Assembly: GCA_026391715.1 (NCBI GenBank) | Contig: JAPLDO010000228.1 | Location: 1 to 48,686, forward strand | Length of the DNA: 48,686 nucleotides | Direction of reading: 5' to 3' | Source of the DNA: Bacteroidota bacterium | GTDB lineage: Bacteria; Bacteroidota; Bacteroidia; Bacteroidales; FEN-979 | Part shown: piece after piece, positions 3,900-43,361 of the stretch | Position numbering within the stretch: position 1 is the stretch's first letter | Layout: each line of letters opens with the position of its first letter | The notes under the pieces: model-generated | The model's database searches: none | What the model saw: the letters and a program-made list of their open reading frames with translations, nothing else | Told to the model about the DNA's origin: nothing | Position numbers and translations under genes: made by a program

Positions 3900-3956
3900 C
3901 TATTACATGACTTCCGGGCGTTTTAATCTTTGGCGGAGTTTATGTAAATATTTGAC

Positions 3957-5798: not shown

Positions 5799-6383
5799 TC
5801 ACTTTACGCTTCTCACACTAATCCGCTTCACCCAAAATAACCAGAGTCCGCAAATAACAAGGTAAAACATCCATCTGAGAACATTATCGTGGGCAAATTT
5901 CATCCATTCGGGATGATTCATTGACAACACCCCTGCCAGGAAAATTCTGAGAAGGTTGGTAATGTGAACGAGCAATGCGCCCAAAGGGATAAACCACAGT
6001 TTTTTGAGCCAGGGTCCACGGTAAATCAGCATTAGCAGAACGAACTGCATTATTTGTTTCATTCCTGAACAACTGCTATTTATAGAGATGTCATAACCCG
6101 AAGGAAACTCCATGAGATTACCGGTGATTGTAACCTTGTACCCCATAAATGTATTGAGCGCCCAGGTACTTTGATACAATACTTCGTTGGCAAGCCAGTT
6201 CATAATCGTTGTCATGAAATTATGAATGGGAAATAAGCCTAACTTATTTTCCCAGAAACGCCAGCCGAAATGAATCAGAAGAGTAAGAAAAAGGAATGTC
6301 AAAATGTCCTTCATCCCATACATACGGCGTTCAATGAAAAACTTGTCAATCCTGTCGGTCACTGTTAATCTTTCCGTTACCAT
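5799..6383 (-). CDS. Exosortase/archaeosortase-family integral membrane protein
   Basis: This 194-residue protein is mostly hydrophobic and carries the exosortase catalytic triad in the expected order: Cys105 in INSSCSGMKQ, Arg146 in NLLRIF and His165 in FAHDNVLRW. Exosortases are membrane transpeptidases or proteases thought to process proteins with a C-terminal sorting signal (short motif, hydrophobic helix, basic cluster). The small size resembles the compact Bacteroidota forms such as XrtF, but I cannot assign the subtype. The ATG at 6383 comes one base after the tyrS stop codon, which supports this start and implies co-transcription; MKDILTF at residue 24 is a possible alternative. No protein in the window has a matching C-terminal sorting signal, so the substrate must lie elsewhere. 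Confidence 0.85.
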   Translation of the reverse strand: MVTERLTVTDRIDKFFIERRMYGMKDILTFLFLTLLIHFGWRFWENKLGLFPIHNFMTTIMNWLANEVLYQSTWALNTFMGYKVTITGNLMEFPSGYDISINSSCSGMKQIMQFVLLMLIYRGPWLKKLWFIPLGALLVHITNLLRIFLAGVLSMNHPEWMKFAHDNVLRWMFYLVICGLWLFWVKRISVRSVK

Positions 6384-6384
6384 T

Positions 6385-8119: not shown

Positions 8120-8454
8120 TTACCTGATCAATGTTACCGTTCCCATGGTTGAAACGCCGCCGGTTCCCGATTCTGATCCTTCCCAAACCTTGCCGTTAGT
8201 AAAGGTGGCGTTAATCTTCCACATATAAACATCCTGCGGCATCGGCTCGCCATTAAATGTGCCGTCCCATCCATCTTTTGGCATTCCTTTATCGTCGCTG
8301 GTAAGTACCTGCGACTCCCATATCAGGTGTCCCCATTTGTCAAATACCATTACATGATAGTCGCGCAAATTCATCCCTTTGGGTTTAAATTCCCTGCATC
8401 CTAAACCATCGAGATTTGTTGGAGAAAAAGCATTGGGAACAAACAAATTATCAT
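8120..8454 (-). other. T9SS type B (gliding-motility-associated) C-terminal domain of the first giant protein
   Basis: The last about 110 residues match the CHU_C-type domain: YDNLFVPNAFSPT, REFKPKGMNL, YHVMVFDKWGHLIWES, DGWDGTFNGEPMPQDVYMWK, and a terminal GTVTLIR. In known systems this domain directs export across the outer membrane by the type IX secretion system. The second giant protein ends with a near-identical domain. Confidence 0.92.
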
Positions 8455-11400: not shown

Positions 11401-14400
11401 CTGTTCCATGTGGCAGCCCATCGCCGAAATCCCAGTCCCAGCCAATGATTGAGGGAGCGTTGGCAATAGAATTGTCGGTAAAATGGGTCATATTTCCTTT
11501 ACAAACCATATCAAAGGAAAATGCCGCTGTTGGCTCCGGCTGAATAGTAACCGGTTTCGAAATGGTATTGGCGCAATTATTACCGTTTCTGACAATCAGA
11601 GAAACATTATAACTTGCGGCTCCTGTAAAGGTATGCGAAGGATTCTGAAGTACTGAAGTGTTGAAAAATCCCGATGTTGGATTTCCGAAATTCCAAAGCC
11701 AGGCTGTAACCGGACCGCCGCCGTTGGGTTGGCTTAAATCGGTGAAAAAAACATTCTGTTCGGGACACAGGTTGGGAGTATATGCGAAATTTGCCGCCGG
11801 CGCGGGTACGCTGTTTATAAGATGTTCGATAAACGAGACGCAACTGTCGCTGGTTTTAACCGTCAGTCGAACGGTGTGTTGCGACGCTGTGCCGGCAAAA
11901 GTGTGAGTTACATTCGGGTTTCCGGGAAACAGTATTGTTGTGTCGGGCGATCCGTCGCCGAAATTCCAAACCCATTTTACAATCTGTCCATGCAGCGTTG
12001 TGGAACTATTGGTATAGATAACCGCAGCGCCGCTACAAACCGGAGAATTGGTTATGAAAGCTGCCACAGGTAACGGAAGAACCTCCACATTCAACGTTGT
12101 GTCGCGACTACAGAAGTTGGAATTTTTTACCGTCAGCGTAACCGCAAAAATACCGGGATTGGCATAAGTATGGGTTGGATTCTGGATGGTTGAAGTCGGG
12201 CTGCCATCGCCGAAATTCCATATCCACTCAATGTTTGCAGTTGCATTTGGCACAGATGTATCAGTAAACTGGGTGATACTTCCGAGGCAGGCGGCGGTGG
12301 TTGTGAAATTCGCGCGAGGTCCGGCATGAACAGTCACTATTGTAAGGATAGTATCGGTGCAGCCTCCCGAATTCATCACTATCAGCCGCACTCTGTAAAT
12401 TCCAACCGTATCAAAAACATGGATGGGCGATTGTTGTATCGAAGTATTATTCCATCCCGACGAAGGATCGCCGAAATTCCAGCTCCATTCAACAATCGAA
12501 CCTCCGCCTTGTAGTTGCGAAATATCAGTAAAATGAACATTTTCGTCTTCACAGCTATTCGAGAAATCGAAATTTGCCATTGGCGCCGGCGAAATATCAA
12601 TGGTTCTGATCTTCTCAGCGAGACATCCCTGGTTTGTTTTAACTGTAAGTTTTACCTGATATGTTCCGGGAATGTTGTAGATGTGTGAAACATCAGGCAA
12701 ATCAGGCAAGAGGATTAAGGTATCCGATCCGTCGCCGAATTCCCAATGCCATTGAATCAGGAAATTATTGCCCGGCGCGTAGGAATAATCTGTTAAGAGA
12801 ACTTCATAGCCTGAACACATCGGCGCATTATGCGAAAACATGGCAACCGGCAATTCGTTTACAGTTATAGCATGAACGAGTGTTTTGCTGCAATTGTTTG
12901 TATCGGTAACGGTCAAGGTAACCTGAAAAATTCCGGTCGCCGGATAGAGATGCGAAGGCTCAACCGGGGCGGTGAATGACGATGAATTTCCATCGCCGAA
13001 ATTCCATTCCCATAAGGCAATACGGCTAATATCAAGTCCATTAAGATGAAATTGGGTTAACTGCTGATAACAGGTGGAGTCGCCGGTAAAATCAACCCTT
13101 GGCGTGGGAAATACGACTACCGCCACGCTGTCGCCAAACTGAACATCACATAAAGTTTGTGGATGAAAAGCCCTGACCTGGTAAATTCCGGGAATGGTTT
13201 TCATGCCGAAGCTGATTGGCGACCCGGTTCCCGGAATCGGGAAACCGCTTGGCATTCCGCCTGAAAGTAATTGGTAAAAGATTCCCACTTGCGAGCCGTC
13301 AATACCGATTTCAACGCCGACGCCGCCTTCGCAGTAACCGCCGCCATTGGCAACAGTCATGGTATAAGTATTGGGCTGCGGGATTACATTTATTGTAAAT
13401 GATGGTCCTGTGGAAGTAACAGAACAATTGCCGTCGCTGATGTTCAAAATGGTATAAGTTGTCGTAACTATCGGAGCTACCGTGAAGGTGAAAGGACTCG
13501 ATGGAATATTGGCGGCTGTGAAGTTGTTCATCCCATCGGAATAGACGATTGACCAGGGAGGTATGCCGCCTAAAGTTGCAATCAGATTTCCATTATAACC
13601 TTCGCAAATTGTGTCGGAGCCATTCAGAGTAACCGTGGGAAGCGGTTTGAAAATAAGACGGACTGTGTCGGAATCAATCGCCGGAGTGCATTTCGCTTCG
13701 CCATTCACGGTTAATTTCAAATCGGTATATCCGGTCAGAATATCGCTACTTCCGGGAAGATATGAGGGATTCATTATGGTTGGATTACTGAAAACGCCAT
13801 CGCCCAAAGCGCTCCAGAGAAGCGCTGTATAATGCGTGGCGGAACCATGAAGCGGAACAGGAACATTCGGGCAGGTAAGCGTATCGTTTCCGGCGTTTGC
13901 CAGCGGCATTGGGTATAGCGATAAAACGAGACTGTCGGAAACTGCATCAACGCTGCAATCCGACAAACCATGCGCAGTGAGTTTTAACATAACCGACCCT
14001 GCCAGACTATCAGCCGATCCTGGGGAATACAAAGGATTGGCGATATACCGGTCGCTGAAAATTCCATCGCCGGTTGTATTCCATTCAAGATTTGAATATC
14101 GTTGAGCCAAAGCAGCTAACTGATATGCCTGATTTGCGCAAAGCGTGGTATCGCGTCCTACATCAACAATTGGCAATCTGATCAGTGCGAGGTTCATTGT
14201 ATCATGGTCGCTTTCGGCAGTACATTGCGCAATCCCTAAGGCAGAAAAAACCAATGGCGCCGAACCAACAAGTCTGTCATTCGCGCCTGGGGTATAAAGG
14301 GCGTCGGGTTTTGTGGGATCGTCAAAACTGCCGTCACCGGCGGTTGTCCACAAAACAGAAGAATTGCGCTGTGGAATGCCGGTAAGCCGGTAAGTCTGGT

Positions 14401-17400
14401 TTTCGCATATTGTATCGTCAATTCCGGCATAAGCGCTTGGTAATTGATCAATAACCAGATTCAGGGAATCGGAAACCATATCATCAAGGCAGGTAAGTAT
14501 TCCATAGACTGATAATTTCAGTCGCGCCGCGCCCGACTGTTTATCCAAAGATCCGGGAGTATAAACCGGATTCAGCGTTATGGAATTATCGAAAATCCCG
14601 TCACCGGAAGTATGCCATTGGCAGATTGAATAATTTTGAGCAAATCCATGAAGCGAAACTGCGCCGGTGGCACAGATGGTATCGTTAAGTCCCGCTTCAA
14701 CAAGCGGAAATGGGTTGATGGTGACAACGAGGGTATCGGCGTCAGTTTTATCGAGACAGGCGGGAGAACCAAAAACCTTCATCGCCAGGCGAACCGAACC
14801 GCTTCCGTTATCAGTATTTCCGGGAGTATAAACAGGGTTGAGGATCGCCGGATCTGAGAAACTTCCATCACCCTGCGTTGACCATAGAACCGCGCTGTAA
14901 CCTGATGCTATTCCCGACAACTGTATCGTATTGGTTTCACAGATTGCCGCGTCATTTCCGGCATCTGCGTGCGGACCGTTGGTAATAATCACATCATTGG
15001 GCATTGTGTCGGCGCAGGAGGTTGCCGCAATCTGAGCTATGACAATATAATTTCCGGCAGGTTGCGAACCGAAAGTCAGTGGCAGCCCGGTTCCCTGTGC
15101 CGGAATTCCTGTTGGAAAACCATTGCGGTATAGTTGGTAGTTTACGCCAACCTGCGAACCCGACAATCCTACCTCGGCAGGGGAACAATTTCCGCCCTCC
15201 GGAGTTAAGTTGAAAGCGAGAGGTAAAGGGAGTACAGCGACGCTTCCGGTCATCATCGTATCGCACGCACTCCAGGTATCCACTGCATAAACGGAATAAA
15301 TTCCTTCGAGAAACTGTAGTCCGAAATGGAGCAGCAAACCTGTTCCGGGTTTGGTTATTACGCCAATACCATCGCGGCGCAATTCATATTCAATTCCAAT
15401 GTCGGAACCATTGAGATAGAGATCGGTTCCGGCACACACAGCATTCTGGGGATGAAGTATGTATGAAATTGGAAGTGGATTCAGAACGGTGGAGCCATTC
15501 ATGTCGGAATGGCATGAAGTAGCGCTGAAAACGCCTTCAACTTTGTAAACCCCCGAATAATACTGGTTGCCGAAAGATATTGGGTTTCCGGTACCTGCAA
15601 CCGGACCTGCTGCAAATATCCAGCCATCGCGAATCAACTTATAATTAACGCCGATCTCAGAATCTTCGAGTCCGATATTCGAATTGGCGCAATCAATGCC
15701 GTTTGGAATTATGTGATAAGGTATCGGCGATTGGAAGATCCGGAGGCTGTCACCCATCGCGTATTCGCAATGGGTAAGAGTATCAATGGCGATGATCCTG
15801 TAAACTCCCGCGGTTTGGTAGGTTCCGAAAATCAGGGGCTGACCGGTTCCGTACAAACTGTCGAGATAAACCGTGTTGTTGAAGGTCAAACGATAGGAAA
15901 TTCCCATCTGGGAGCCATTCAAACGGACAATGGCGGGGGCGCAGGTATCAAGCGAAGGCAAAATGTTAAATACAATGGGAGCGGGCTGGATTGTGGCGTC
16001 GAGGTTCATCCAGGAATAACAATGGGTAAGAGGGTTATAACCGATTGCCTGATATTTTCCGGGAATGTATTGTGCTCCGAAATCAAGCGGAAATCCCGTT
16101 CCTGAGATGGGTAACCCGACATTTGTAAGGCTGTCGCGGCGAAGTTGGTAATCAATACCGATCTGAGATCCGGTGAGCAGAACCGTTTGTCCGGGACACA
16201 AAATTCCGGGAGGAACAACATCGAACAATTCCGGCGCAGGATGCAGTGTGACCGTGCCGATCATATCATTTTTGCAGCCGGTTACCGGGTTGATTGCCAC
16301 CAAACGGAAGGTTCCGGTATCGAAAATATGTCCGAAGGTGAGAAGCCCGAAAAGTCCGGTTCCGGCAACCATCAAAATTGTATCGGCGCCATTTATAAGG
16401 TAGTAGTTTATTCCGGCTTCCGAACCGTTTAGTAATATTTCCGCGCCGTAACAGGTATCGCCCTGCGGAATCATCAGATAGGCAATTGGAAGTGGATTTA
16501 CCACAATTACGGCGCTCCCGGTCATTATTCTAATCAAACCTGTTGCAATTGTAACGCCTTTGATTGTATATGTTCCTGCGATATTGAAGATTCCGAAATG
16601 AAGCGAATCGCCGTTTCCGGGTAATTGAGCGATGCTGTCGTTGTTGCGGCGCAAGATATAACGTATTCCGGTTTCGGAACCATTGAGACCAATCTCTTTT
16701 CCCGCTTCGCCAAGGCAAATCTGACCGCCGCCGTAAACATTGAACAGGCTTGGGTAAGGGTTAATAACCACCGTTACGTTTCCTGCCATATCGGAAACGC
16801 AGCCGGTTATGGCATTTGTTGCCACAACTGTATAACTTCCGGCAAGCGTTTGATTTCCAAAATCAATAGGAGTATTGTCAATGCCTGGAATTCCCGGAGG
16901 CGTTGTAACAGGATCAACGCCATTGTAAAGCATGTAGTTGACGCCGGTTTCCGATTCAGACAATCCTACCGGCACACCCGATCCGCCGGCTGGGTAAGAA
17001 CCGCCTCCGGTTACGGTAAAGACGCCGGGCAGCGGAAGAATTGTAACTGCGGCGCTGCCGGTCATTAGGTTTTCGCATCCGGTAATGGTTCGCGTAGCCT
17101 TTACGGTATAGGTTCCTTCGATGGTGAAATATCCAAACGTAACCGGCGAACCTGTTGATCCGTCAATAGTTGGCGTGAGCGGTACCGAACCTCGGAAAAG
17201 CTGATAGTTCACTCCTGTTTCGGAATTTTCAAGGATAATCTCCACGCCGGTTCCTCCAAAACAATAGGATCCGCCGCCGGTTACATTATAAGAGATGGGC
17301 AATGGGTTCACAATCAAAGTAACCGAAGCTGAGGCAGCGTTAAATCCATCATTTACGGCGACAGTGTAGGATGTTGTTTCGGATGGCGAAACCATTGGAT

Positions 17401-24796: not shown

Positions 24797-25053
24797 ATAC
24801 ATTTTTTTATCAATTACTGCAAACGGGCAAGATTGTGACATTCTGATCGCAAATTTCAAATCTCAAATTCCAATCCTTAATTCCAAATCCTTGCTTTCAA
24901 TGTTTGCTAAACTATGGCTCTCTCTTGGTTCTCCTTTTGATAACCATCCCATCCATACAGGTCGGAATGCAATTTTCAACAGACGGCGGAAATCTCTGAT
25001 ATAACGGGTGCATATCAAACAATTAAATTGAAATAGGTAGAATTAACCGTTAG
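24797..25053. other. Spacer between the two giant genes
   Basis: This 257-bp non-coding spacer separates the stop codon of the second giant gene (25054) from the start of the first (24796). It holds the degenerate 7-bp-period tract at 24849-24890 and otherwise no recognisable gene or clear terminator hairpin. Whether the two genes are co-transcribed cannot be told. Confidence 0.65.
24849..24890. repeat. Degenerate AT-rich tract with a 7-bp period
   Basis: Read on the minus strand the tract divides into six heptamers, GGATTTG, GAATTAA, GGATTGG, AATTTGA, GATTTGA and AATTTGC. It lies 53 bp upstream of the chosen start of the first giant gene. Confidence 0.6.
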
Positions 25054-25380
25054 TTACCTTATTAATGTTACCGTTCCCATATTTGAAACGCTTCCGGTTC
25101 CCGATTCCGAACCTTCCCACACTTTGCCGTTTTTAAAGGTGGCGCTGATCTTCCAAATATAAACATCCTGCGGCATCAATTCACCGTTGAAAGCGCCATC
25201 CCAACCGGACACCGGTCGTCCTGATGTGTCAAGTTCGGTGTTTTCCCAGAGCAGATGACCCCATTTATCGAAAACAGTGACATGATAGGCGCTAAGATTC
25301 ACCCCTTTTGGTTTGAATTCCCTGACGTCGAGCGCCAGACTGGTCGGAGAAAAAGCATTCGGAACAAACAGATTATCGTA
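25054..25380 (-). other. T9SS type B C-terminal domain of the second giant protein
   Basis: The final about 108 residues contain YDNLFVPNAFSPTSL, REFKPKGVNL, YHVTVFDKWGHLLWEN, GWDGAFNGELMPQDVYIWK and a terminal GTVTLIR. They are nearly the same as in the first giant protein, consistent with export through the same type IX machinery. Confidence 0.92.
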
Positions 25381-28300: not shown

Positions 28301-31300
28301 TATAAACCTGCGTTCAGGTAAAGATGAACCGGATCTTCAGCCTGCGAGGTTTGTCCGTCGCCGAACTCCCATAGATAGGTTGTTATCGTTCCGAAGGCTG
28401 TTGTTGATTGGTTTGTAAATGTAGTGGGAGAACCTTTGCATACGTTATTTGCAATAAAATCTGTAAACGGACGATCATTCACGGAAACGTTAAAAAGCGT
28501 TGGATTCGTGGAATTACAGCCCGAAGCATTTGAATAATTTACCGAAACGGTTTGATTTCCGGTGGCAAACCAATTTACGCCGATGGTATTTGTTCCGGTT
28601 CCGTTCACAATCTGACCGCCAGCCGAAACTGTCCAGATATATCCCGACATTCCCGGCTGCGTTGAGTAAACCATGCTGTTTTCACTGCGGCAAACAGTAT
28701 CGGGACCGGCAATTGCCGGCGCCGGCGACGGGTTCACAAATACATTGATGGTAGTTGGGAATGTGGCTTCACAACCATTCACATCGGTATAGGAAACGCT
28801 TACCGACTGAAATCCGGAAGAATTCCATTGAATGGTAACGGTATAATCATTTACGCCGCCGCCGCCGGTTATAACGCCGCCAGCCGAAGTGGTCCACACA
28901 TAACCTGAATTTCCGGGAGCGGTGCTATAAATATTGTTCGCCGAGCCAATACAAACCGAAAGATTGCCAACAATCAGTGGAACCGGCAAAGGGGTAACGG
29001 AAACCTGATAAATTGTTGGCGTTACGGCTTCACAACCAAAATAATTGGTATATGTAACCGTAACGGTGTGGTTGCCGATTGTATTCCAGATTACTGTAAG
29101 ATGATTTGTACCCTGCCCTCCGGCAATTGTTCCTCCGGCAGGAATTGTCCATTGGTAACCTGTCATTCCGGGTTCTGTGAGATAAGTTGCAGTCAGACTT
29201 CCTTCGCAAACAAAATTAGGTCCGGTAATAGTCGGAGTTGGCGCGGGAATTATAGTAACAGGAAAAACTGTGGAAGTTGTTGCGGCGCACCCAGCCAATC
29301 CGGTATAGTTAACGCTAACCCAATGAAATCCGGCAGAAGTCCATTTCACCACTACTCGCCTGTCGGTACTCTGTCCGAGCGAACAAATCTGACCTCCTGT
29401 TGAGGTAAGCCACTGGTAATTTGTCATGCCCGGTTCTGTTTCAAAAGTTATACATTCATCAATACATCCCACCGACGTTCCCGCTGGAATAGTAGCGATA
29501 ACCGGAACAGGCGGTGAAACTACATTTACATGAATGACTGTGGGCGATGCAGCAGGACAGTTATGACTATTTTCATGGTAATTCACCGAAACCGTTCCCT
29601 GCCCTAAAGTTGTCCACTTAATAGTAACTGTGTTATCGTTGGTTCCCCCGCCCGCAGTGATTGTGCCACCGGTAACGTTCCAGGTATAATTGAGGTTGTC
29701 GGGTTCGGTTTGGTAAACATTACCTGTTGAATTGATACAAACCAGCGGGGCTCCGCTAATGGTTGGCACAGGCACAGGGGTTGCCGTAATTGTTACTTCG
29801 TTGGTAATTTTCTCCTGATCGGGATTGCACCAGGTATCGCTTTGCTTCAGCCTGAAAATTGTGGTTTCTGAAAGCGCCGGCGGCGAATATGATAAAGTAG
29901 TTGCATTAGGAATATCTGTCCAGGCTGACGTCAAAGTTTTCGATTGCCACCTGAATACGCGGTTTCCGCTGCCGCCGGCGGGAAGCGTGGCGGTAACAGG
30001 TTCGGGCGTTTCAAGCATACAAATTATCTGATCAACTCCTGCCACTCCTGCCACAAACTCATCATATACAGTTATTGTAACTGTTACGCTGTTTACCAAC
30101 TGTTCGGGACTACAGTGATTATCAGTTTGAACAATCCTGTATTGTGTTGTAGCAAAAAGCGACGGAGGCGCCCAAATCAATGTTGTGGCTCCGAAGATGT
30201 TATTCCATCCTCCGAAACCATCCTTTACCTGCCAGTTATACACAAAATTTCCACTGCCGCCGCCGGGAAGAACGGCTATCAAAGGATTTGGAGTTTCGCC
30301 GTAACAGATTGTCTGATCGACGCCAACATTCCCTGCAAAAAGCTGGTCATAAACGCTGATCGTTACTACATTGCTGTTAATCTGGTGAACGGGATCGCAA
30401 TCAATGTCGGACTGAACCACCCTGTAATGAGTTGTGGCTGTAAGCGCCTGAGGATTATACAAAAGATCGTTGGCGCCGGGAATGTCATTCCATGATCCAT
30501 CGACAGCCTGAATCTGCCATTGATAAGTAAAGTTTCCGCTTCCGCCTGAGGGAACCGAAATATTTAATGGATCAGGGGCTTCTGCGTAACAGATAGTCTG
30601 GTTAACGGTAACTGTACCCGACACCATTAGTTCGTGAACAGTAACTGTTACTTCATTACTTATTATTTCAGGAGATGGAACACACTGGTTGTCCTTTTGA
30701 ATTACCCTGTATTTTGTGGATTGCGTTAACGCCGGAGGCGCAAATTGAGAATTGGTAGCTCCCGGAATATTATTCCAGGCGCCGCCGCCAACCTGCAACT
30801 GCCAATGATATGAAAAAGCGCCGCTGCCTCCCGATGGAATTGATATTGCAACCGCAACCGGCGTTTCGCCCATACAAATTGTCTGGTCAGAGCTTGCCGT
30901 TCCTGAGCCCAACTGCCCGAAAACAGTAATGGTTACAATATTGCTCGTTACCGTTTGCAAAGGATTGCACCGGTTGTCGGACTGAACAACCCTGAACCTT
31001 GTTGTCGCAGTGAGCGGCGTTGGTGCGTACAATAAACTATATGCGTTGGCGATGTTATTCCATGCTCCGGCGCCAACCTGTTCCTGCCACTGATAAGTAA
31101 AATTTCCACTGCCGCCTGCCGGAATTGTTGCAGAGAGTGGAACCGGCGTTTCACCGTAACAGATGCTTTGATCGGCTGAGGTAACCCCGGCAAACAATTG
31201 ACCGGAAACCGTTATAGTCACTATATTACTGACTTCCTCCTGATCGGGATTACAATAATCATCGGTTTGAATCAAACGATATTGCGTTGTTTGAGTCAAT

Positions 31301-34300
31301 GCCGACGGCGCGAGAGTAAGACCGTTTGCCGAAGGTATATTGTACCATCCGCCATTGCCAACCTGCGATTGCCACTGATAAGCAAAATTTCCACTTCCGC
31401 CCGCCGGGATTGCCGAGGCAATCGGAACAGGAGTTTCGCCAAAACAAATTATCTGATCCATGCCCGCCGTTCCTGTAACCAACAGGTCGTAAACGGTTAT
31501 TGTCACAATATTGCTGGTAACGTCGCGGTCGGGATTACACCAGGAGTCGGTCTGAATTATCCGGTAGTTTGTAGTAGCCGTGAGGGCTATCGGCGAAAAA
31601 ATCAGATCCGTTGCGCCGGAAATGTTATTCCACCCACCAATGCCCGTCTGTGCCTGCCATTGAAAGGTAAACAATCCGCTGCCGCCTGAAGGCGCTGAAA
31701 CAACCAATGCAGCAGGCGTTTCCCCGTTACAAATTGTTTGATTATTTCCAGCCGATCCAACAACTAATTGGTTGTAAACGGTTATAGTAACAACATTACT
31801 AATCGCCTCCTGATGAGGCGCGCACCAGGCGTCGGTTTGTATCACCCGATATTGGATAGTTGTAGTAAGCGAAGGCGGCGAATAAATCAGGTTAGTGGCT
31901 CCCGGAATATCGTTCCACCCCGCGCCTGCAATTTCATTCTGCCACTGATAAGTAAAGTTGCCGCTTCCTCCCACTGGAAGTGAAATGTGCAGTGGATTCG
32001 GGATTTCTCCGTAACAGAGTGTCTGGTCGGTATCCGCCGCGCCCGACATAAGCTGGTTATAAACTGTCACCGTAACAACATTGCTGGTTGCCTGTTGATA
32101 AGGATCACAATATATATCGGTGTGAATTACGCGATACTGGGTTGTTTCAGAAAGCGCGGGCGGCGAGTAAGTTTGCCCGATGGCAGATGGAATATCAACC
32201 CAACTACCGCTATTAGCCTTCAATTGCCACTGGTATGAAAAAGTTCCGCTACCTCCCGAAGGCGGCGTAACCGAAAGCTGCGAAGGTATTGTTCCAAAGC
32301 AAACAAACTGATCATTCGCGGCGCTACCAGAAACCAGTGGCTGGTGAACAGTGATTGTTACCAGATTGCTGATTACATCCTGAGCGGGATTACACCAGAT
32401 ATCTGTTTGAATAAGTTGATAAGATGTTGTGGTTGTCAATGCCGATGGCGAATATGCCAGGTTGGTGGCTCCCTGAATATTTGTCCAGTTTCCGGTACCG
32501 GTTTTTGCCTGCCATTGGTAAGTATAGTTGGAACTTCCGCCGGCGGGAACTGTTGCAATCAGAGGATCCGGCGTTTGATTATAACAGATCGTCTGATTAT
32601 TTCCAACTGTGCCCGAAACGAATGGACTGAAAACGGTTATTAGAATTTCATTTGTTGTAACAATTTGATCGGGGTTGCAAAAATTATCAGCTTGCCGCAG
32701 CCTGTAATGCGACGTTGTTGTGAGTTGAGGAGGCGAATAAGAGAGGTTGGTTGCGCCGTAAATATCTGTCCAGTTAACGCCAATCAACTCTTGCCACTGA
32801 TAGGCAAACATTCCGCTGCCGCCTGCCGGTAAAGTTGCCGAGATTGGTTGAGAAATCTGACCGTTGCAAACGGACTGATCCGGGCTGGCGGCGCCTGCTA
32901 TCATCGGGTTGAAAGTGAAAATGGTCATCTGATCATTTAAATCAGGGCAGGGATCGGCATTGGTGGAAGTTAAAGTCAGCGTAATCGTTGATCCCGCTTC
33001 CGATGGATCGGGATCATAAATGGCATTCAATGCCTGCCGGTTCGGAGTAAAAGTACCCGTTCCACCCGACCATACGCCTGTTATTGTTCCTCCTGTAATT
33101 GTTCCGGAAAGTATTACCGTTTCATTATCGCATACGCTCTGATTCGGACCAGCGTCAACCAGCGGCGCGAGGATATTGATAGTAATTTGATCCTGGGCTT
33201 CGGCGTTTGCGCAACCATTGGCGCCAAAAGCCCTGAGTGTAAGAATAACCTGCTTATTTGATAAATCAGCGGCAGTAAATGTATAAGTAGTCGCTAAACT
33301 GTACTGGTCGCTGAAATTAGAACCCGAAGGATTTGTAGGACTCGACCATTTCACTGAACTAAAACCGGTTGCTGTTCCTGTTAAATCAACAGTATTGGGA
33401 GGAAGATTACAAACGGTTATATCAGCCGCGCCTGCGTCAACGGTTGGACGAGGATCAATAACCACCTGCCCGCTCATCAGCGTATCGCATCCTTTGGAGG
33501 TAGTAGCTTTTACTTTATAAATACCCGCAGGCTGTGGCTGGTTAAACCAGAAACTTCCTGCGGCGACGGTTGTAGTTTCAACCGGAACAGGTAATTGCGA
33601 GCCATCCTGATGAACGATTTCATAAGTGGTATTGGCTTCGGCATTTTCCATACCTATATCCTGCAATTCGCAGTTGATTCCTTGAGGTTTCACACCATAA
33701 ACACCCGGTCGCTGATTGATCGTTACAATTCCAGTCATAGTATCGTTACAGGAAGTTATGGCTGAATGTGCGGTAACATAATAGTTACCTGGTTGGTATT
33801 TTATTCCCCAATGCAACGGGTTTCCGTCGCCTGGCAATGAAATAACAGTACCTGCGGGAGGATGGAGTTTGTAGGTTACATTTTCTTCGGAACCGCTGAG
33901 CCAAATATCCACGCCGGCACATGATTCTATCTGGGGATTCAATGTAAAGCGAACCGGATCCAACTGAAGTAGAAGGCTGCCGGTCATCGTTTCGGTGCAA
34001 TTGTTTGCCACATTCCGCGCGCTAATGGTATAGGGTCCGGGAACGGTGATAAACCCAAAACTCAGCGGGTCTGCGCCTCCGATACCGGGTTTAGGAAGCG
34101 ACCAGGGGGCGCCACTAAGAAACAAGGTATATTCAATTCCGATATCCGAATGTTCAAGCAGGATTTCTTTTCCAACACCAGGGTCAAAACACACTATTCC
34201 TGTTGGTAACATCTGATATTTTGAAGGACTTGAAAGAACGATTACAGAGTCATTCATCTGAGAGTGACAGATGTTATTTGCATCATAAGTTATCACAACA

Positions 34301-37300
34301 TAAGTCCACGGAACGCTGGTTGATCCGAATACCAATGGCTGACCGTTTATCCCGGTTCTGGTAGAAAAATTCGGATCGGGCAAAATGTATGGAGTACCTG
34401 TTGAAGGATCAATTTTATGCACCCGGTATGTATAGCCAGTTTCGGAATTATCGAGACCAATTTCGGTAAGTCCGCAATGGGCTCCCGATGGCGTGATGTT
34501 ATATGGAACCGGATTTTGCCAGATCGCCTTTTCATCATCCATATACACATCGCATCCGGTTATGGGATTATATGCCAGAACCTTGTAAACGCCGGGAGTA
34601 AACTGATGCCCGAAATTTATGGCGCCTGTTCCGCCCAGCCACGGACCTTGTGTGAACTGAGAGCCGGTTGCAGGGGTGCAAACGAGGCTGTACCATATTC
34701 CTGGCTGAGAATTTTCGAGTGAAAATTCATCGCCGGCGCACAATGAACCTGCCGGAGAAAACAGGAACTGCAAAGGCAATGGTAAAATGATCGCTTCATC
34801 ATCAATCCATACCCAACATCCGGTTAGCGGATAGGTGGCTTTGATTTTATATGTTCCGGGGTTTATCTGAATACCAAAATCCAACGGACCAGGTCCGGTT
34901 CTGCTGATACCCGTATTCACATTTCCGTTGAAAAGCTCATATAAAACGCCAATCTGGCTTCCATTAAGGGTAATAATGTCGCCGGGACAATTTCCGGTAG
35001 AGCCGATCACGTAATTTGGCACAGGATTCGGGTTAATCGTCACAACGCATTGACCATTCATCAATATTGACTGTTGGTTGGTAATATTTGTGCCGAGAAT
35101 AGTATAGACGCCGCTTTCCGGAATCGTCCACTCAAGCGTATCGCCCGTGCCTGACTGCATTCCGCCGGGAACCGGCACACTGCTCTTCAGCAATTGGTAA
35201 TCAATACCAAAATCGGAACCGTCAAGGGTTATCGCTACCGGAGTGCCTGCGCATACCGGCGGAGGACAAATTAAATTGTACTTCTCCGGTTCGGTGTTAA
35301 TTATTATGCTGTAATAAAAAGGCGTTCCCAAACATTCAACGCCTCCTGGCAATGCAATCCAAGGCGTTACTTTATATTTGAGAGTACATGTTGCAGGTCC
35401 TCCCGTTGAAATCGAAAGCAATTGTGCTGGTAGCAGGGCGGCTGTTCCATTCATCAGGTATGGGCTGATAAATCCCGGACAGGTTACGTCGAAAAACTCC
35501 CAACGAAAATTTACTCCATCAACATTTGATGTAAAGGTAACCGGTACTGTCATCTGACCGGAAACCAAAACCTGGAAATTTACCGAATTGGATATCTGCG
35601 CCACCGGCATTACATTCACTACGAGTGTAACAGAATTTCCCGCGCAAAAATTCGGCGCCGGACCATGTGGAGTAATGTCGTAAGTAACCTGACAAGGCAC
35701 GCTTCCATAGTTGAATAAAATATCGCCAATGGTGATTCCCTGACCGCTGTTATTGCCAATACAGCTCCCCGCCGATGTAGTCCAGGTATAGGTTGAGCCG
35801 GATACTGATGAAACCGGCGAATAATTAACCGCATCGCCCGAACAAAGACTAACGGTCAACGCACTTGTAATTACCGGAACCGGATCAACGGCAATTGTAG
35901 TATTGGAAGTACAGGAAGCAAACCCGTCCCATATAACGCAAACATAGTTTGTTGAAGTGGTTGGACAAACGTCAATACATTGCAAAGAAGAGGTAAATCC
36001 GGGAGGAGTCGAAGTCCAGCTATAAGTATAATTTCCTGAACCTCCTGATGCAGTTGCACAGATGTGAGCTTGTCCGTTGAGGCAATCAGGACAAATACTG
36101 TTTGGGTTTGCTGCAATTGAACAAACCAAGGGATTTCCGGTGATGGAAATTACCGTATTATCGCTTCCCTCGCAACCATTTGAGTCAGTGACTTTATAGT
36201 TGAAAGTGGTGGTGGTGGTAAGTGCAACCGATGTGACCGTCTGTTGAAAGGGATCCCCGTTAATCTTATCCGACGGCGACCATTGATGATTAGTGTATGG
36301 TAGCGTTCCGCCGGTAGCCGACCCTGTAAGAGTGATTGTCCAGCCATTTGGAATAGGCGCGTATAGTCCTGCTTCAGCCACCGGATTGGGGTTTACATCA
36401 ATGATTACCACATTGCTTGTATCTGCATGGCATGAAGCTGATGACGATACAATTCTGCGGAAATGGGTTTTTACGATGAGTGGCGCTGGCTGGTATGTTG
36501 GTCCATCCGCGCCGGGAATATTGATAAATGTTGTATAAGGGGAAACTGTTGATTTCTGCCACTGAAATATATAAAGCCCACATGCCCCTACAGGGTCGGT
36601 TCCCATGAGTGGAGCGGGAGCCTTACCGGCGCATATTTCAGTGGAACTTACCGGAATTTGATTATTTGAAATAGGTTCGCAGAAGTTAATGATGATCGGT
36701 TGATAGGTAAGGCTGATGGCGCCGGCGATGATGGTCCAGATTGAACCGCCATCTGTGGATTGTTCCCAACTGAAGGTGAAAGGCGAGGAACCGCCAAAAG
36801 GCGCTGTCCCGGTGATTAGAGCTGGCTGAGCGGCGCCGCATACCGACTGATCACCCAAAATCAGATTATTCTGAACTGCGGGATGAATGGTAATCTCCAA
36901 AGAGGTTGAGAAATCTGAACAGTCTCCTGCATCATAAGCAGTTCGCCGGTACAGGGTTGACTCACATAGGGGTGAATTGATCTGGTAATTCTGACCGGTT
37001 CCACCTACCGCTATTGGTTCCCAGCCAGTACCCTGATTTTTATCCCACTGAAAAGTATAGGTTCCACTGCCTCCCTGCGGCATCGCGCCGGTAATGGTAA
37101 TTTGGGAAATACATCCGCAAAACTGTGCCGGCGATAATGAAATCACATTGTTTGACAGCAATTGAGTAATATGAACGGTCATGGTTTTATTATCGCTGCC
37201 ACATCCATTGTTGATGGTAACCTTGACAAGATAATCGCCAAAATCGGGAAAATTGATGACCGGATTATATGAAGAATCGGTGGTACCCTGTTCAAAAGTA

Positions 37301-39570
37301 ACTCCTGCAGAAGGTGTAACTTCCCACAAAATACTGATCGTTGATGAATCGCAGTTCAGATTATATGCCGGATTAAATAATCTTGGACCGGGCCCGCAGT
37401 AATAGACTTCATTTTGAGGAAAGGCAACCAGCGGAGGTTCACAAACCAGAACTGGCAGTTCCGTGAAACTCGTATCACAACTGTTTACCAACCTTAATTT
37501 GATGTTATACAAATAATCGGGGGGCTGTCCCATTGCGGTGAATTTAATCAATGGCTCCGAATAGGTGTTATCGCCTTCATGAAAGGGTGTTACAATCTGC
37601 CAACCAACCGGCGGTGTTATTGTCCACAGGTATTTCGGAATTCCCATACCGCCAACTTCACTTGTATCGTGGATTTGCACATACTTTGGAACACAAGCCT
37701 CGGTTGTGTCAAATACAAAGTTCGCTGTTGGATTGGTTTGAACGTAAAGATATTTGACAATGGTATCAAAACCGGAATTATTGGTCAAATTCTGTCCTGT
37801 ATAGGTGATAAGTGTAATAGTATAAATTTGGCCACTGTTTGTAAATGTGTGTATAGGGTTTGCCAGGATGGAGGTATTATTTGTTCCCGAAGCCGGATCT
37901 CCAAAATTCCAGTTGTAAAAGGTATTTGAAGTATATGCGCTTCCATTGGGAAAAATGTAGAACCCCGGATGAGTGAGATTTGAAAAAGGCACCGGATTGC
38001 ATCCAACTATATGGTCAGGAATAGTATCGCCAGTCCACCAGCCATTTCCACCTTCCCATCCGCCGCCAAAGTTACCTTGCGCCATACATGAAACATGAAT
38101 AGGAAAAACTGTGGTGATAATTTTCCCACAGGGGTTTTTAACAGTACAAATAGCTTTATATGCATAAAGTCCATCAATCATTGAATCGGAACATGTTGTA
38201 TAGATATGGGGTAAAATATGATCTGCGGGTAAATCTTCCTGATATATGGTATCCGTGATACCATCCCCGAAATTATAAACATATTCAGTTCCTGGCGTAC
38301 TCGAATAAGCCTGTTCGGGAATAATGAAATTAACGAGAAAAGGCGCAATGCCATAAGTGTTCGGAGGAGTAGTCAAGCCTCCTCCAGGGTTGCTGCCAAC
38401 AAAAACTCCATATTGCCGGCTGTTGTTACATCCGTTTTGTCCGTTAACTGAATAATTAATGGCTTGTTCGCCTAAACAGGTATAGGTTACAGGAATGTTT
38501 GCCGTAAAGGTCGCGCTATTAAAGGTTGGGGTTGTCGTACAATTACCCCACGTAATGTTGTATAAAGTATTTGAAGCGGATGTAGTTGTTGCATTATGAA
38601 ATTCAAAGTACCCCAGCGGATTCACATTGTTGGCGCCGCAGTATGCAAATGTATTCGGATAATTAGGATTTGTCGCGTTCAATACATCAGTTAGGGTGAC
38701 ATCGGGTTTCTGGGTAACTGTAACCGGCTGAATAATTGTATCCTTACAGCCATTGGCGTCGGTTACCCGAAAATTTACATGAAAGGTTTCCGAGCCATTA
38801 CCCCAGGCTTCAAAAACATGAGAGGGATTCTGTAGCGTTGATACATTCCTTGGCACGGAATTGACGTCGTCAAATTTCCAGAGATATGTAAGCCCGGCGC
38901 CTGGAGTTGTGCTTGTGAAAGTAACCGGAGTACTTGAACATGGATTCGTTATCAGATAGGTAAAACTGGCAACCGGAGGCGTATTCAGGATTATTGTAAC
39001 GTTTCCCATGTTTTTTAAGCAACCTGTAGAGATAATTTTCGCCTTAACTGTGTAAATACCAGGCGTAGTAAAATATCCAAAGGAATGACTATACCCATCG
39101 CCAGGCCAGGCAGTTCCCTGTGAAACAGCGCCGAGAAAAACTTCATATTCAGCGCCTGGCTGCGATCCGGCAATCATAATTACAACTCCCGAAGCATCAG
39201 GATAATTACAGAATTTCCCATTCGTGGGAAGCGTGCTTACTACAAATGACGATGGTTGAGGATCCATCCAAACCGTTATCTGATTTGTTGTAGGAACAGT
39301 AATGTATGTACCCGATTGGTAATCGCCCGGAAAAGTAACAGTTCCACCGTTGCCAACCACGGTTGCCAGGTCGCCCGGACCAGATAACGGTTTTCTGAGC
39401 CTATAGGTAATCCCGTTAACTGAATTATCAATTTTAAACTTCAAACCCGTTGTACCCTGGCAGTAATGGCTGTTGGGAGGATCAGTGACAAGAGTAGCAA
39501 CTGCGCCATAAACAAATTGACTAATCAAAATTGTTGTAGCGCAAAGCAGATAGCGTAAATATATTTTCAT
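25054..39570 (-). CDS. Second giant secreted PKD/Ig-like multidomain protein with T9SS type B sorting domain
   Basis: This protein has 4,838 residues in one frame. It starts with a signal peptide (MKIYLRYLLCATTILISQF, then VYGA). The order is: N-terminal region with SETG-like and PKD domains collinear with the first giant protein (about 37200-39490); three divergent GGSG-YQW domains (about 36400-37150); CSG-like and SprB-like domains; seven SETG-type repeats (33480-35290); a 285-bp repeat array of eleven units (29770-32901); five further Ig-like domains (28480-29770); about a dozen PKD domains (25381-28480); and a C-terminal type IX sorting domain from YDNLFVPNAFSPT (25380). The C-terminal third aligns domain by domain with the first giant protein, so the two are paralogues. 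It is likely a long extracellular fibre or adhesin. I see no enzymatic domain. The gene precedes the other giant gene and follows the eno terminator. Confidence 0.93.
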   Translation of the reverse strand: MKIYLRYLLCATTILISQFVYGAVATLVTDPPNSHYCQGTTGLKFKIDNSVNGITYRLRKPLSGPGDLATVVGNGGTVTFPGDYQSGTYITVPTTNQITVWMDPQPSSFVVSTLPTNGKFCNYPDASGVVIMIAGSQPGAEYEVFLGAVSQGTAWPGDGYSHSFGYFTTPGIYTVKAKIISTGCLKNMGNVTIILNTPPVASFTYLITNPCSSTPVTFTSTTPGAGLTYLWKFDDVNSVPRNVSTLQNPSHVFEAWGNGSETFHVNFRVTDANGCKDTIIQPVTVTQKPDVTLTDVLNATNPNYPNTFAYCGANNVNPLGYFEFHNATTTSASNTLYNITWGNCTTTPTFNSATFTANIPVTYTCLGEQAINYSVNGQNGCNNSRQYGVFVGSNPGGGLTTPPNTYGIAPFLVNFIIPEQAYSSTPGTEYVYNFGDGITDTIYQEDLPADHILPHIYTTCSDSMIDGLYAYKAICTVKNPCGKIITTVFPIHVSCMAQGNFGGGWEGGNGWWTGDTIPDHIVGCNPVPFSNLTHPGFYIFPNGSAYTSNTFYNWNFGDPASGTNNTSILANPIHTFTNSGQIYTITLITYTGQNLTNNSGFDTIVKYLYVQTNPTANFVFDTTEACVPKYVQIHDTSEVGGMGIPKYLWTITPPVGWQIVTPFHEGDNTYSEPLIKFTAMGQPPDYLYNIKLRLVNSCDTSFTELPVLVCEPPLVAFPQNEVYYCGPGPRLFNPAYNLNCDSSTISILWEVTPSAGVTFEQGTTDSSYNPVINFPDFGDYLVKVTINNGCGSDNKTMTVHITQLLSNNVISLSPAQFCGCISQITITGAMPQGGSGTYTFQWDKNQGTGWEPIAVGGTGQNYQINSPLCESTLYRRTAYDAGDCSDFSTSLEITIHPAVQNNLILGDQSVCGAAQPALITGTAPFGGSSPFTFSWEQSTDGGSIWTIIAGAISLTYQPIIINFCEPISNNQIPVSSTEICAGKAPAPLMGTDPVGACGLYIFQWQKSTVSPYTTFINIPGADGPTYQPAPLIVKTHFRRIVSSSASCHADTSNVVIIDVNPNPVAEAGLYAPIPNGWTITLTGSATGGTLPYTNHQWSPSDKINGDPFQQTVTSVALTTTTTFNYKVTDSNGCEGSDNTVISITGNPLVCSIAANPNSICPDCLNGQAHICATASGGSGNYTYSWTSTPPGFTSSLQCIDVCPTTSTNYVCVIWDGFASCTSNTTIAVDPVPVITSALTVSLCSGDAVNYSPVSSVSGSTYTWTTSAGSCIGNNSGQGITIGDILFNYGSVPCQVTYDITPHGPAPNFCAGNSVTLVVNVMPVAQISNSVNFQVLVSGQMTVPVTFTSNVDGVNFRWEFFDVTCPGFISPYLMNGTAALLPAQLLSISTGGPATCTLKYKVTPWIALPGGVECLGTPFYYSIIINTEPEKYNLICPPPVCAGTPVAITLDGSDFGIDYQLLKSSVPVPGGMQSGTGDTLEWTIPESGVYTILGTNITNQQSILMNGQCVVTINPNPVPNYVIGSTGNCPGDIITLNGSQIGVLYELFNGNVNTGISRTGPGPLDFGIQINPGTYKIKATYPLTGCWVWIDDEAIILPLPLQFLFSPAGSLCAGDEFSLENSQPGIWYSLVCTPATGSQFTQGPWLGGTGAINFGHQFTPGVYKVLAYNPITGCDVYMDDEKAIWQNPVPYNITPSGAHCGLTEIGLDNSETGYTYRVHKIDPSTGTPYILPDPNFSTRTGINGQPLVFGSTSVPWTYVVITYDANNICHSQMNDSVIVLSSPSKYQMLPTGIVCFDPGVGKEILLEHSDIGIEYTLFLSGAPWSLPKPGIGGADPLSFGFITVPGPYTISARNVANNCTETMTGSLLLQLDPVRFTLNPQIESCAGVDIWLSGSEENVTYKLHPPAGTVISLPGDGNPLHWGIKYQPGNYYVTAHSAITSCNDTMTGIVTINQRPGVYGVKPQGINCELQDIGMENAEANTTYEIVHQDGSQLPVPVETTTVAAGSFWFNQPQPAGIYKVKATTSKGCDTLMSGQVVIDPRPTVDAGAADITVCNLPPNTVDLTGTATGFSSVKWSSPTNPSGSNFSDQYSLATTYTFTAADLSNKQVILTLRAFGANGCANAEAQDQITINILAPLVDAGPNQSVCDNETVILSGTITGGTITGVWSGGTGTFTPNRQALNAIYDPDPSEAGSTITLTLTSTNADPCPDLNDQMTIFTFNPMIAGAASPDQSVCNGQISQPISATLPAGGSGMFAYQWQELIGVNWTDIYGATNLSYSPPQLTTTSHYRLRQADNFCNPDQIVTTNEILITVFSPFVSGTVGNNQTICYNQTPDPLIATVPAGGSSNYTYQWQAKTGTGNWTNIQGATNLAYSPSALTTTTSYQLIQTDIWCNPAQDVISNLVTITVHQPLVSGSAANDQFVCFGTIPSQLSVTPPSGGSGTFSYQWQLKANSGSWVDIPSAIGQTYSPPALSETTQYRVIHTDIYCDPYQQATSNVVTVTVYNQLMSGAADTDQTLCYGEIPNPLHISLPVGGSGNFTYQWQNEIAGAGWNDIPGATNLIYSPPSLTTTIQYRVIQTDAWCAPHQEAISNVVTITVYNQLVVGSAGNNQTICNGETPAALVVSAPSGGSGLFTFQWQAQTGIGGWNNISGATDLIFSPIALTATTNYRIIQTDSWCNPDRDVTSNIVTITVYDLLVTGTAGMDQIICFGETPVPIASAIPAGGSGNFAYQWQSQVGNGGWYNIPSANGLTLAPSALTQTTQYRLIQTDDYCNPDQEEVSNIVTITVSGQLFAGVTSADQSICYGETPVPLSATIPAGGSGNFTYQWQEQVGAGAWNNIANAYSLLYAPTPLTATTRFRVVQSDNRCNPLQTVTSNIVTITVFGQLGSGTASSDQTICMGETPVAVAISIPSGGSGAFSYHWQLQVGGGAWNNIPGATNSQFAPPALTQSTKYRVIQKDNQCVPSPEIISNEVTVTVHELMVSGTVTVNQTICYAEAPDPLNISVPSGGSGNFTYQWQIQAVDGSWNDIPGANDLLYNPQALTATTHYRVVQSDIDCDPVHQINSNVVTISVYDQLFAGNVGVDQTICYGETPNPLIAVLPGGGSGNFVYNWQVKDGFGGWNNIFGATTLIWAPPSLFATTQYRIVQTDNHCSPEQLVNSVTVTITVYDEFVAGVAGVDQIICMLETPEPVTATLPAGGSGNRVFRWQSKTLTSAWTDIPNATTLSYSPPALSETTIFRLKQSDTWCNPDQEKITNEVTITATPVPVPTISGAPLVCINSTGNVYQTEPDNLNYTWNVTGGTITAGGGTNDNTVTIKWTTLGQGTVSVNYHENSHNCPAASPTVIHVNVVSPPVPVIATIPAGTSVGCIDECITFETEPGMTNYQWLTSTGGQICSLGQSTDRRVVVKWTSAGFHWVSVNYTGLAGCAATTSTVFPVTIIPAPTPTITGPNFVCEGSLTATYLTEPGMTGYQWTIPAGGTIAGGQGTNHLTVIWNTIGNHTVTVTYTNYFGCEAVTPTIYQVSVTPLPVPLIVGNLSVCIGSANNIYSTAPGNSGYVWTTSAGGVITGGGGVNDYTVTIQWNSSGFQSVSVSYTDVNGCEATFPTTINVFVNPSPAPAIAGPDTVCRSENSMVYSTQPGMSGYIWTVSAGGQIVNGTGTNTIGVNWFATGNQTVSVNYSNASGCNSTNPTLFNVSVNDRPFTDFIANNVCKGSPTTFTNQSTTAFGTITTYLWEFGDGQTSQAEDPVHLYLNAGLYNVKLTVTNTAGCVKDTTKQANVWGKPNALFSYGVSNCAGDSVQFTDLSTTVHGYINQWTWDFGDGSAPVVIPLQGNPNVKHRFLNSGTFNVKLTITTSDDCISQKINPVSVAPRPLANFAFSTASCALLPVQFTDLSQLNGGLPITSWIWNFGEPISGIANTSPLQNPVHVYQSGGIYSVKLIVTNANGCLDSIRKSVTINATPVAKFAVDSSCIQSPTQFTDSSTTVAGTIVAWAWNFGDPASGANNISTLENPTHIFNTPGNYWVSLHVTNSNQCGKDTAIMVTANPKPIADFQHSVPCMQDTTQFTDLSIAPNSSIKSWRWNFGDNGTDSIQNPKHAYLTAGTFNVTLIVTNLYNCSDTVTKPMVVRYKPLSAFNWQSYFCPANEVNFQDSSQAYGGAFISSRIWIFEPGSTFNGINPQHHFGSNDTTYSVTLMVTDNFGCKDTTFENVYVKPGYDLTFDYDTACLGAATHFRAINRAAGDTLYSLRWDFGDPDSGPNNFSTMYEPEHEFSQTGTFVVSLKAWNSNNCVDSLFRIVQVRKLAEPDFTFQTLTCIDTVRFVDKSKPGFGTIAKWKWIWGDGTPSITIMPPAKGDTMHVYANPGDYPVKLIATNSHGCTDSIVKEVSVACIAAAFTQLNSFNCSSDSISFLDGSSPVNRISSWHWNFGDTKTLDYTAYRDTVCHKFAPGTYQVTLTIKTSSGGAIISADHQLSIIVHAAPVANFTTNTVCYGDSTRFTDLAQENQVPITYREWKFGDGSSVAFSDIIVNPVHKYLHGGVYNNKFIVKNNIGCRDSIIKPVIVHKLPVASFTNSTACQRYDIKFADGSGMGDTTMMKWWWNFNNPENPYDTLRTRLVTKRFDSAGIYPVYFKVMDKNGCIDDTINIGFDVEQSPVAAFTITENFDGKPGKIRLNNESSGAKEKAYKWDYQTGTSVEMNPVVTYTDDNTVYIIELVTWNYENCYDTTSLSYEFHYDNLFVPNAFSPTSLALDVREFKPKGVNLSAYHVTVFDKWGHLLWENTELDTSGRPVSGWDGAFNGELMPQDVYIWKISATFKNGKVWEGSESGTGSVSNMGTVTLIR
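28480..29770 (-). repeat. Five Ig-like repeats of about 85 residues
   Basis: Units share P-xIxGPxxVC at the start, then xYxTEPGMxGYxWTxSAGGxIxxG and a VSVNYTNxxGC end. Measured steps are 255 and 261 bp between the third, fourth and fifth copies, so spacing is less rigid than in the neighbouring 285-bp array. The pattern matches PKD-like or Ig-like domains of Bacteroidota surface proteins. Confidence 0.8.
29770..32901 (-). repeat. Eleven tandem 285-bp (95-residue) Ig-like repeats
   Basis: Each unit reads roughly V-x-G-xAGxDQTIC, GETPxPL, PAGGSGNFTYQWQ, GWNNIPGAT, YxPxxLTxTTxYR-xQTDxxCNP, SNxVTITVY. The D/N-Q-x-x-C codons lie at 32872, 32590, 32305, 32020, 31735, 31450, 31165, 30880, 30595, 30310 and 30025. 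The first step is 282 bp and the next nine are exactly 285 bp. Each repeat has two cysteines at fixed places. An Ig-like beta-sandwich is inferred. Confidence 0.93.
33480..35290 (-). repeat. Seven contiguous SETG-type repeats of about 86 residues
   Basis: These are the same unnamed repeat family as at 14969-17300: L-GSxxGxxYxL, a G-G-x-PLxFG turn, GxYxVxA, Cys, M-x-G. The copies start near PPPVCAG, STGNCPG, PAGSLCAG, PSGAHCGL, PTGIVC, PQIESCAG and PQGINC. One copy (PSGAHCGL) carries an insertion of about 15 residues. Confidence 0.75.
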
Positions 39571-43342: not shown

Positions 43343-43361
43343 CGCTATTTGTTTTTTTGTT

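Follow-up and report, generated by a model that had tools for sequence, protein, structure and literature searches.

The two giant genes described here, A and B, appear to be old paralogs of SprB-like giant filamentous type IX adhesins, probably served in trans by carriers encoded elsewhere in the genome and possibly moved along a track; we put the probability of this reading at roughly 0.7. They lie side by side in the window, the whole stretch of 48,686 nucleotides analysed, which is the entire contig C193 of a draft genome of an uncultured Bacteroidales bacterium (G000; 5.02 Mb in 256 contigs). A and B are ordinary in kind as SprB-like giant adhesins, and their interest lies in the contrast between a fixed stalk and a fluid array and in the unlinked carriers. 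An earlier note on this DNA had reported two adjacent giants on one strand; its coordinates and lengths are right, and both frames are intact (Table 1).

Table 1. Features of the window, with coordinates counted from its first nucleotide.
Feature	Coordinates	Strand	Evidence
Right context: tyrS and exosortase-family gene; no PorP/SprF gene	5799..7668	-	
Gene A, giant PKD/Ig-repeat protein, 5579 aa, putatively secreted; 60 repeat domains parsed	8120..24859	-	
A sorting domain, C-terminal, type-B-like, CHU_C-like, residues 5470-5579	8123..8452	-	Pfam/TIGR scores, family alignment
A proximal stalk, PKD_4 x18, residues 3920-5469	8453..13102	-	In register with G020, G013, G002
A V and X domains, residues 3740-3916	13112..13642	-	Repeat profiles
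A Y repeats x5, residues 3296-3743	13631..14974	-	Repeat profiles
A X repeats x9, residues 2521-3294	14978..17299	-	Repeat profiles; Ig-like model
A W-V-X-W-V segment, residues 2101-2519	17303..18559	-	Repeat profiles
A PKD_5 x13, fluid array, residues 867-2100	18560..22261	-	Pfam, repeat profiles
A five-domain higher-order repeat, second copy; 78.7% DNA identity to first	19406..20734	-	
A five-domain higher-order repeat, first copy	20837..22165	-	
A N-terminal V, PKD_6 x2, PKD_4 x5 region, residues 46-869; partly aligns with B 171-804	22253..24724	-	
Gene B, giant PKD/Ig-repeat protein, 4838 aa, putatively secreted; 48 repeat domains parsed	25054..39570	-	
B sorting domain, C-terminal, residues 4731-4838	25057..25380	-	Pfam/TIGR scores, family alignment
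B PKD_4 x12, residues 3701-4730	25381..28470	-	Repeat profiles, register
B PKD_6 x5, residues 3267-3699	28474..29772	-	Repeat profiles
B Z (SprB-type) repeats x11, residues 2223-3266; 285-bp period	29773..32904	-	Repeat profiles, PF13573
B Y repeats x2	32896..33447	-	Repeat profiles
B X repeats x7	33451..35289	-	Repeat profiles
B W, V and PKD_5 x2	35290..36384	-	Repeat profiles
B Z repeats x3	36385..37155	-	Repeat profiles
B N-terminal X x2 and PKD_4-like region (two PKD_4 parsed)	37159..39489	-	BLASTP, repeat profiles
Left context: enolase, L17, rpoA, S4, S11, S13, peptidase M24, SecY, L15, S5, L18	39927..48404	-	

The frame of A is counted from a TTG, but translation probably begins at an ATG, residue 20 or 22, ahead of a stretch that resembles a signal peptide by eye; the predicted mass is 582 kDa and the pI 4.7. 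The frame of B starts at an ATG (predicted mass 518 kDa, pI 4.6). Domain counts come from repeat profiles built in this analysis, and V, W, X, Y and Z are labels coined here. The order in A is V, PKD_6 x2, PKD_4 x5, PKD_5 x13, W-V-X-W-V, X x9, Y x5, V-X, PKD_4 x18 and the sorting domain; in B it is X x2, PKD_4 x2, Z x3, W-V, PKD_5 x2, X x7, Y x2, Z x11, PKD_6 x5, PKD_4 x12 and the sorting domain. Pfam recognizes PKD_4, PKD and PKD_6 in the two proteins, PKD_5 in A only when the E threshold is 0.001, and a weak CHU_C sorting domain. The W-V-X-W-V segment of A matches Ig_7 (34.2 bits, cut-off 27.3) and falls slightly below the cut-off of 27 for a K319L-like PKD domain (26.4 bits), and the six repeats of A scanned singly, three X and three Y, have no Pfam match even with the E limit raised to 10. 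Three Z repeats of B score 39.9 bits against the SprB repeat (PF13573, cut-off 28), although the entire protein reaches only 23.3 bits; a protein scan finds no PF13573 match in A.

The sorting domains score close to the PF13585 cut-off of 27, with 31.4 bits for A and 27.1 for B in the genome search and 25.2 and 20.7 in the protein scan, and below the TIGR04131 cut-off of 35 (26.0 and 23.9 bits). Both C-terminal domains align strongly with those of carrier-linked relatives, and the earlier assignment of the giants to type IX secretion is supported.

Searching 41 genomes, G000 included, with the last 230 residues of A, we found the family in 34 of them, among which are 24 of the 25 genomes from the bacterium's own taxonomic family, where a genome has up to seven matches. 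Of 22 pattern matches in named genomes, seven encode a relative. These are in five metagenome-assembled Bacteroidales or Bacteroidetes (Loclat, Ja1, Lac Pavin and two Kiruna bins, which make up the set G013, G002, G016, G005 and G015), and the sample names suggest that the bacteria carrying such genes are probably freshwater or lake-dwelling. The family is undescribed in the literature consulted on giant PKD/type IX adhesins, repeat turnover and gliding genes in Bacteroidales, which is no proof of absence. The sorting-domain tree separates a core group, which includes the gene on C146 of G000, from a group II composed of A, B and six relatives' genes from G013, G002, G005 and G016 (100/98; the bootstrap is not fully settled). 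A third giant of G000, on C184 (5903 aa, its 3' end lost at the contig edge), joins group II in a quick tree (96). Giant frames of G000 also occur on C149 (5266 aa) and C167 (6196 aa), the C184 frame being at least 5903 aa, and the genome has at least 150 Por_Secre_tail matches.

For both A and B, long parts have their nearest counterparts in other species' genes and not in the neighbouring giant. A frame in G001 that runs off the contig at both ends parallels A between residues 541 and 4900 or so (about 4,300 residues), mostly at 55-80% identity per window, and the 9290-aa protein of G013:C111 has the second half of A in common. Among the 21 proteins compared, G016:C263 is the nearest to the terminal 870 or so residues of B in most windows, and G013:C99 alone matches B's main Z array strongly. 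The sorting domain of B also clusters with that of G016:C263 (99/98). Because the closest long matches lie in other species (G001, G013 and G016), the pair is old, and as far as sequence comparison can tell A and B are old paralogs, not recent duplicates. In G016:C263 (1-9128) the B-like giant is spread across three frames of 1272, 743 and 1028 aa, either a broken gene or an assembly error.

Compared directly by BLASTP, A and B give three collinear blocks among many overlapping repeat matches. The C-terminal portions align domain by domain, as previously proposed (A 4236-5579 with B 3499-4838, 41.7% identity, E 0), and the example peptides quoted for this in the earlier note are present in A and B. 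Seven of the 12 terminal PKD domains of B have their best match in A at the equal index from the C-terminus (naive binomial p 1e-6 against a chance of 1/18). The N-termini, said to be conserved as well, do align (A 267-866 with B 171-804, 29.9%), but no better than a middle block of twice that length (A 2115-3435 with B 839-2187, 28.9%, E 1.8e-110), so one end, not both, is specially conserved. The description of the middles as quite different holds for part of them. W, V, X and Y repeats are found in both, in a similar general order, whereas the 13 PKD_5 domains of A (B has two) and the Z arrays and five PKD_6 domains of B have no counterpart of similar size in the other gene. In windows of 120 residues, the main Z array of B scores just 27-49 bits against A, and the PKD_5 array of A scores 37-68 bits against B, mainly to the two PKD_5 domains and their surroundings.

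These comparisons bear on the origin first suggested for the pair, a duplicated gene with constant ends and exchanged cassettes between them, here taken as a recent tandem duplication whose ends selection or gene conversion kept alike. The adjacency and common orientation of A and B would fit it, as would the C-terminal register and the last 153 or so nucleotides, which are 83.7% identical, neither gene having a closer DNA match in that stretch among the loci compared. We nevertheless consider it very unlikely, given that the best block has just 42% protein identity, the N-termini are no closer than the middles, B sides with G016:C263 in the sorting-domain tree and A has its long relative in G001. 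The last 155 or so nucleotides of the G002 gene are also 80% identical to both A and B, nearly as close, so there is no clear conversion specific to the pair. Recent duplication and A-B gene conversion at the C-terminal end are thus disfavoured by the window comparisons, the sorting-domain tree and the G002 end, and the picture of a duplicated gene with constant ends does not hold, the C-terminal stalk itself seeming to be block-exchanged. An assembly duplication is rejected: DNA matches between A and B are 75-84% identical across 43-352 nt. The longest exact direct repeat within the two genes is 75 bp.

Within A, an almost invariant half adjoins a highly variable array. Of the 18 terminal PKD_4 domains, 17 find their best match at the equal index from the sorting domain in G020, which belongs to another genus, and 16 do so in G002; G013 keeps 17 of them in the order of A, with one missing. 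A, G001, G013, G020 and G002 all have five Y repeats, and a Y repeat of A is most like the repeat in the same place in 18 of 20 comparisons, both exceptions (the first and fourth Y) being against G020. Judged by these registers, what stays constant across two genera is the half of the A-type protein nearest the cell (X/Y5/V/X/PKD_4 x17-18 and the sorting domain); B differs from this stalk, with 12 PKD_4 and two Y. The constancy has limits, as the X array carries a four-repeat duplication in G001 and G013 that is absent from A, and about 350-400 residues within the A-like stalk of G002:C178 are B-like (59-69% identity to B, 29-47% to A), suggesting that the C-terminal stalk also exchanges blocks.

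The PKD_5 array, in contrast, holds 13 domains in A, 18 in G001 and 56 in G013, bearing out the expectation that repeat cassettes expand, here in steps of five domains. Position by position, units 1-5 of A match units 6-10 at 59-88%, versus 34-52% for other pairs among them, and at the DNA level the two five-domain copies are 78.7% identical over 1333 bp, including 300 nt at 90%. G001 has three copies of A's five-domain unit. The array of G013 repeats with a separate period of five domains, and its units are as much as 95% identical to those five places away. From these copies and this periodicity it follows that the array turns over by five-domain units. Two evolutionary regimes coexist inside one giant adhesin, a one-to-one register across genera beside five-domain turnover, and the 13, 18 and 56 PKD_5 domains form a natural series for asking whether reach is a selected trait. 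The G013:C111 gene (9522-37394), with 94 repeat domains in all, lies beside nusA/infB-like frames (by eye).

The genomic site of the pair is not conserved. An enolase/ribosomal-protein/rpoA/secY block adjoins A and B on one side, and the other flank holds tyrS and an exosortase-family gene. No giant gene lies beside enolase at any of 15 congener loci, each with at least 3.4 kb of downstream sequence; the count does not extend to a 16th locus with too little sequence (G004), to the locus of G002, or to G005, which has no enolase match. Although the enolase is 87-90% identical to that of 17 congeners, 0 of the 15 loci has a giant, so the location is not common to those congeners, and a conserved site for the A-B pair is rejected. 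The tyrS gene is just 42-47% identical to that of 18 congeners, in contrast to enolase, the GC content falls to 35% there, and the adjoining exosortase-family gene is nearest XrtX, below the cut-off; this tyrS looks like a foreign replacement. Two short arrays also occur in the window: a 29-bp repeat with a palindromic core, present three times between the rpsD and rpsK genes (43350-43441), and the 7-bp repeat GGACGAA, present 14 times where a CHASE/PAS histidine kinase frame begins (43-141).

Carriers of the PorP/SprF type usually accompany this family. We considered 39 other family loci, 37 of them with a 3' end, and 33 of the 37 (one being C146 of G000) have a PorP/SprF-like gene directly downstream, identified as such by Pfam in five of five neighbours tested. 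Seven loci above 160 bits were left out of this count (G012:C85, G007:C58, G022:C3, G021:C31, G009:C361, G015:C296 and G016:C223), as were the weaker family matches except G001:C162. The four loci that lack an adjacent carrier are G013:C111, G020:C22, G005:C128 and G019:C16. No carrier adjoins A or B either, as A follows B and tyrS follows A, and no PorP was found among the 17 other window genes scanned.

The G000 genome has five PorP/SprF matches. The one on C53 adjoins a GldK piece and the one on C146 adjoins the core giant. That on C49 has a tail cysteine and sits together with GldJ and a peptidase C25 gene, which we take to be PorU-like (C49, 4434-11026). The remaining two are solitary (C184:10400-11311 and C219:23700-24611). 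In the carrier tree, these two and the carriers beside five of the six group-II relatives' genes form one clade, with nothing else in it (100/100); the sixth relative's gene, G013:C111, is among those that lack an adjacent carrier. The clade held in a second tree made without the long-branch C53 and C49 sequences and three truncated rows. The matching subtype makes the solitary carriers on C184 and C219 the most likely partners of A and B, acting in trans, and the C184 giant may also use or compete for them. Such sharing has a precedent in F. johnsoniae, where, in the available text of PMC12618676, one orphan carrier serves three orphan type B substrates. A and B are thus testable cases of adhesins whose carriers are unlinked.

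The carriers also hint at how the adhesins might be anchored. Of 30 complete adjacent carriers, 29 have a single cysteine at position -4 to -6 from the end, within a tail that looks glycine-rich by eye; the exception (G017:C145) has a serine in its place. The C184 carrier has this cysteine and the C219 carrier lacks it. In the part of Liu et al. available to us (PMC12635249), a disulfide bond joins a tail cysteine of F. johnsoniae SprF to GldK, at a cysteine invariant among GldK/PorK proteins, and PorG of P. gingivalis has a single tail cysteine. The G000 genome encodes SprA (2609 bits), GldK in two contig-end pieces (385 bits on C37, 183 bits on C53), GldJ (483 bits, equivalog cut-off 458; 352 for the short form TIGR03530, below 382.9), GldB (262 bits, cut-off 190) and GldH (112 bits, cut-off 78.7). 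GldH is not specific to gliders, because its cut-off is also passed in the one Bacteroides among the control genomes. In an oral survey, as far as the available text of PMC11705866 goes, GldJ was found in only three genera and core T9SS components in seven. A GldK piece aligns to solved PorK chains and keeps the four PorK cysteines of the aligned stretch. As family carriers end in one conserved cysteine, the carrier anchor may, by analogy, form a disulfide with GldK and travel on a GldJ/GldK track. This suggests that uncultured Bacteroidales, like Flavobacterium, where it is known, dock adhesin carriers to a moving track by a cysteine.

A possible but somewhat doubtful alternative is that A and B are static anchored adhesins, or biofilm or S-layer-like filaments, exported by the type IX system on carriers that do not move. 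Some type B substrates of F. johnsoniae are thought to be static, held through PorP-PorE-like complexes, according to the available portions of PMC12618676 and PMC9143113, and the missing tail cysteine of the C219 carrier would agree with this. The near-universal tail cysteine of the adjacent carriers and a GldJ above its equivalog cut-off argue against it.

Another reading takes A and B as hooks for capturing prey or particles, comparable to Aureispira GhpA (ixotrophy). GhpA is the best solved relative of the first half of A by sequence (E 4.6e-33, 116.5 bits), and it supplies the seven best Foldseek matches of the X-repeat model, an all-beta chain predicted at pLDDT 90.6, ahead of Ig and FnIII domains (the Y-repeat model, at pLDDT 45, is too poor for use). 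However, the sequence match is limited to repeat domains with strong composition bias, the second half of A has no GhpA match at E 0.001, B reaches only 5e-4, and the TM-scores to GhpA are low (0.36-0.45). We regard hooks as improbable and read the likeness as a shared stock of repeats, not as membership.

An Ig/PKD-type domain is about 4 nm long. The parse gives 60 domains for A and 48 for B, and the earlier idea of estimating fibre length from about 60 domains is reasonable as an estimate. Using this length per domain, or scaling from the size of SprB, we estimate a reach of about 170-240 nm for A and about 150-200 nm for B; SprB measures about 200 nm in the available text of PMC12635249.

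For the preferred reading of SprB-like adhesins, the following mechanism may be envisaged. A and B would belong to an adhesin family conserved in an uncultured Bacteroidales genus and its family. Each of the two begins with a stretch resembling a signal peptide, continues with PKD/Ig-type domains (60 parsed in A, 48 in B) and ends in a sorting domain resembling type B. SprA would pass the chain through the outer membrane, and a PorP/SprF carrier would keep hold of its C-terminus, this carrier being most likely supplied to A and B in trans from C184 or C219. The tail cysteine of the carrier may link it to GldK, and the anchor would be moved on the GldJ/GldK track. In the A-type protein a stalk of nearly fixed domain number would stand by the cell, and the array behind it would grow or shrink by five domains, tuning the reach. 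The complete picture, a mobile-adhesin system of freshwater Bacteroidales with a fixed-length stalk, a distal array varying in five-domain steps, solitary carriers acting in trans and single-cysteine docking to GldK/GldJ, is tentative and, taken whole, rather unlikely.

Among known systems, GhpA (Aureispira sp. CCB-QB1) is likewise a giant type IX filament protein, and its repeats are related to the PKD_5/W/V/X part of A. Its likeness does not extend to the stalk and sorting domain of A, and the heptameric hook used in predation is a feature of GhpA. SprB/SprF of F. johnsoniae resembles the present system in having a giant adhesin with a type B sorting domain, to which the marginally scoring domains of A and B are similar; B has SprB-type repeats (PF13573), and the G000 genome has PorP/SprF carriers with a tail cysteine, SprA, GldK, GldJ and GldB. 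The differences are the PKD/X/Y array architecture of A and B, carrier genes that are not adjacent, a single tail cysteine in place of Cys-X-Cys, and a host that is an uncultured member of the Bacteroidales. The orphan substrates of the shuttle Fjoh_1677, as presented in the available text of PMC12618676, are of type B, which A and B resemble, and likewise have no adjacent carrier and solitary carriers elsewhere, but here the substrates are giants, the candidate carriers are two, and the pairing is proposed from trees only. The core-group gene of the same genome (C146; 2982 aa, 31 PKD_4 and one PKD_6, with an adjacent carrier) shares a related C-terminal domain and stalk with A and B. It differs in its nearly uniform PKD_4 array, which has no variable cassettes, and in having its own carrier of another subtype.
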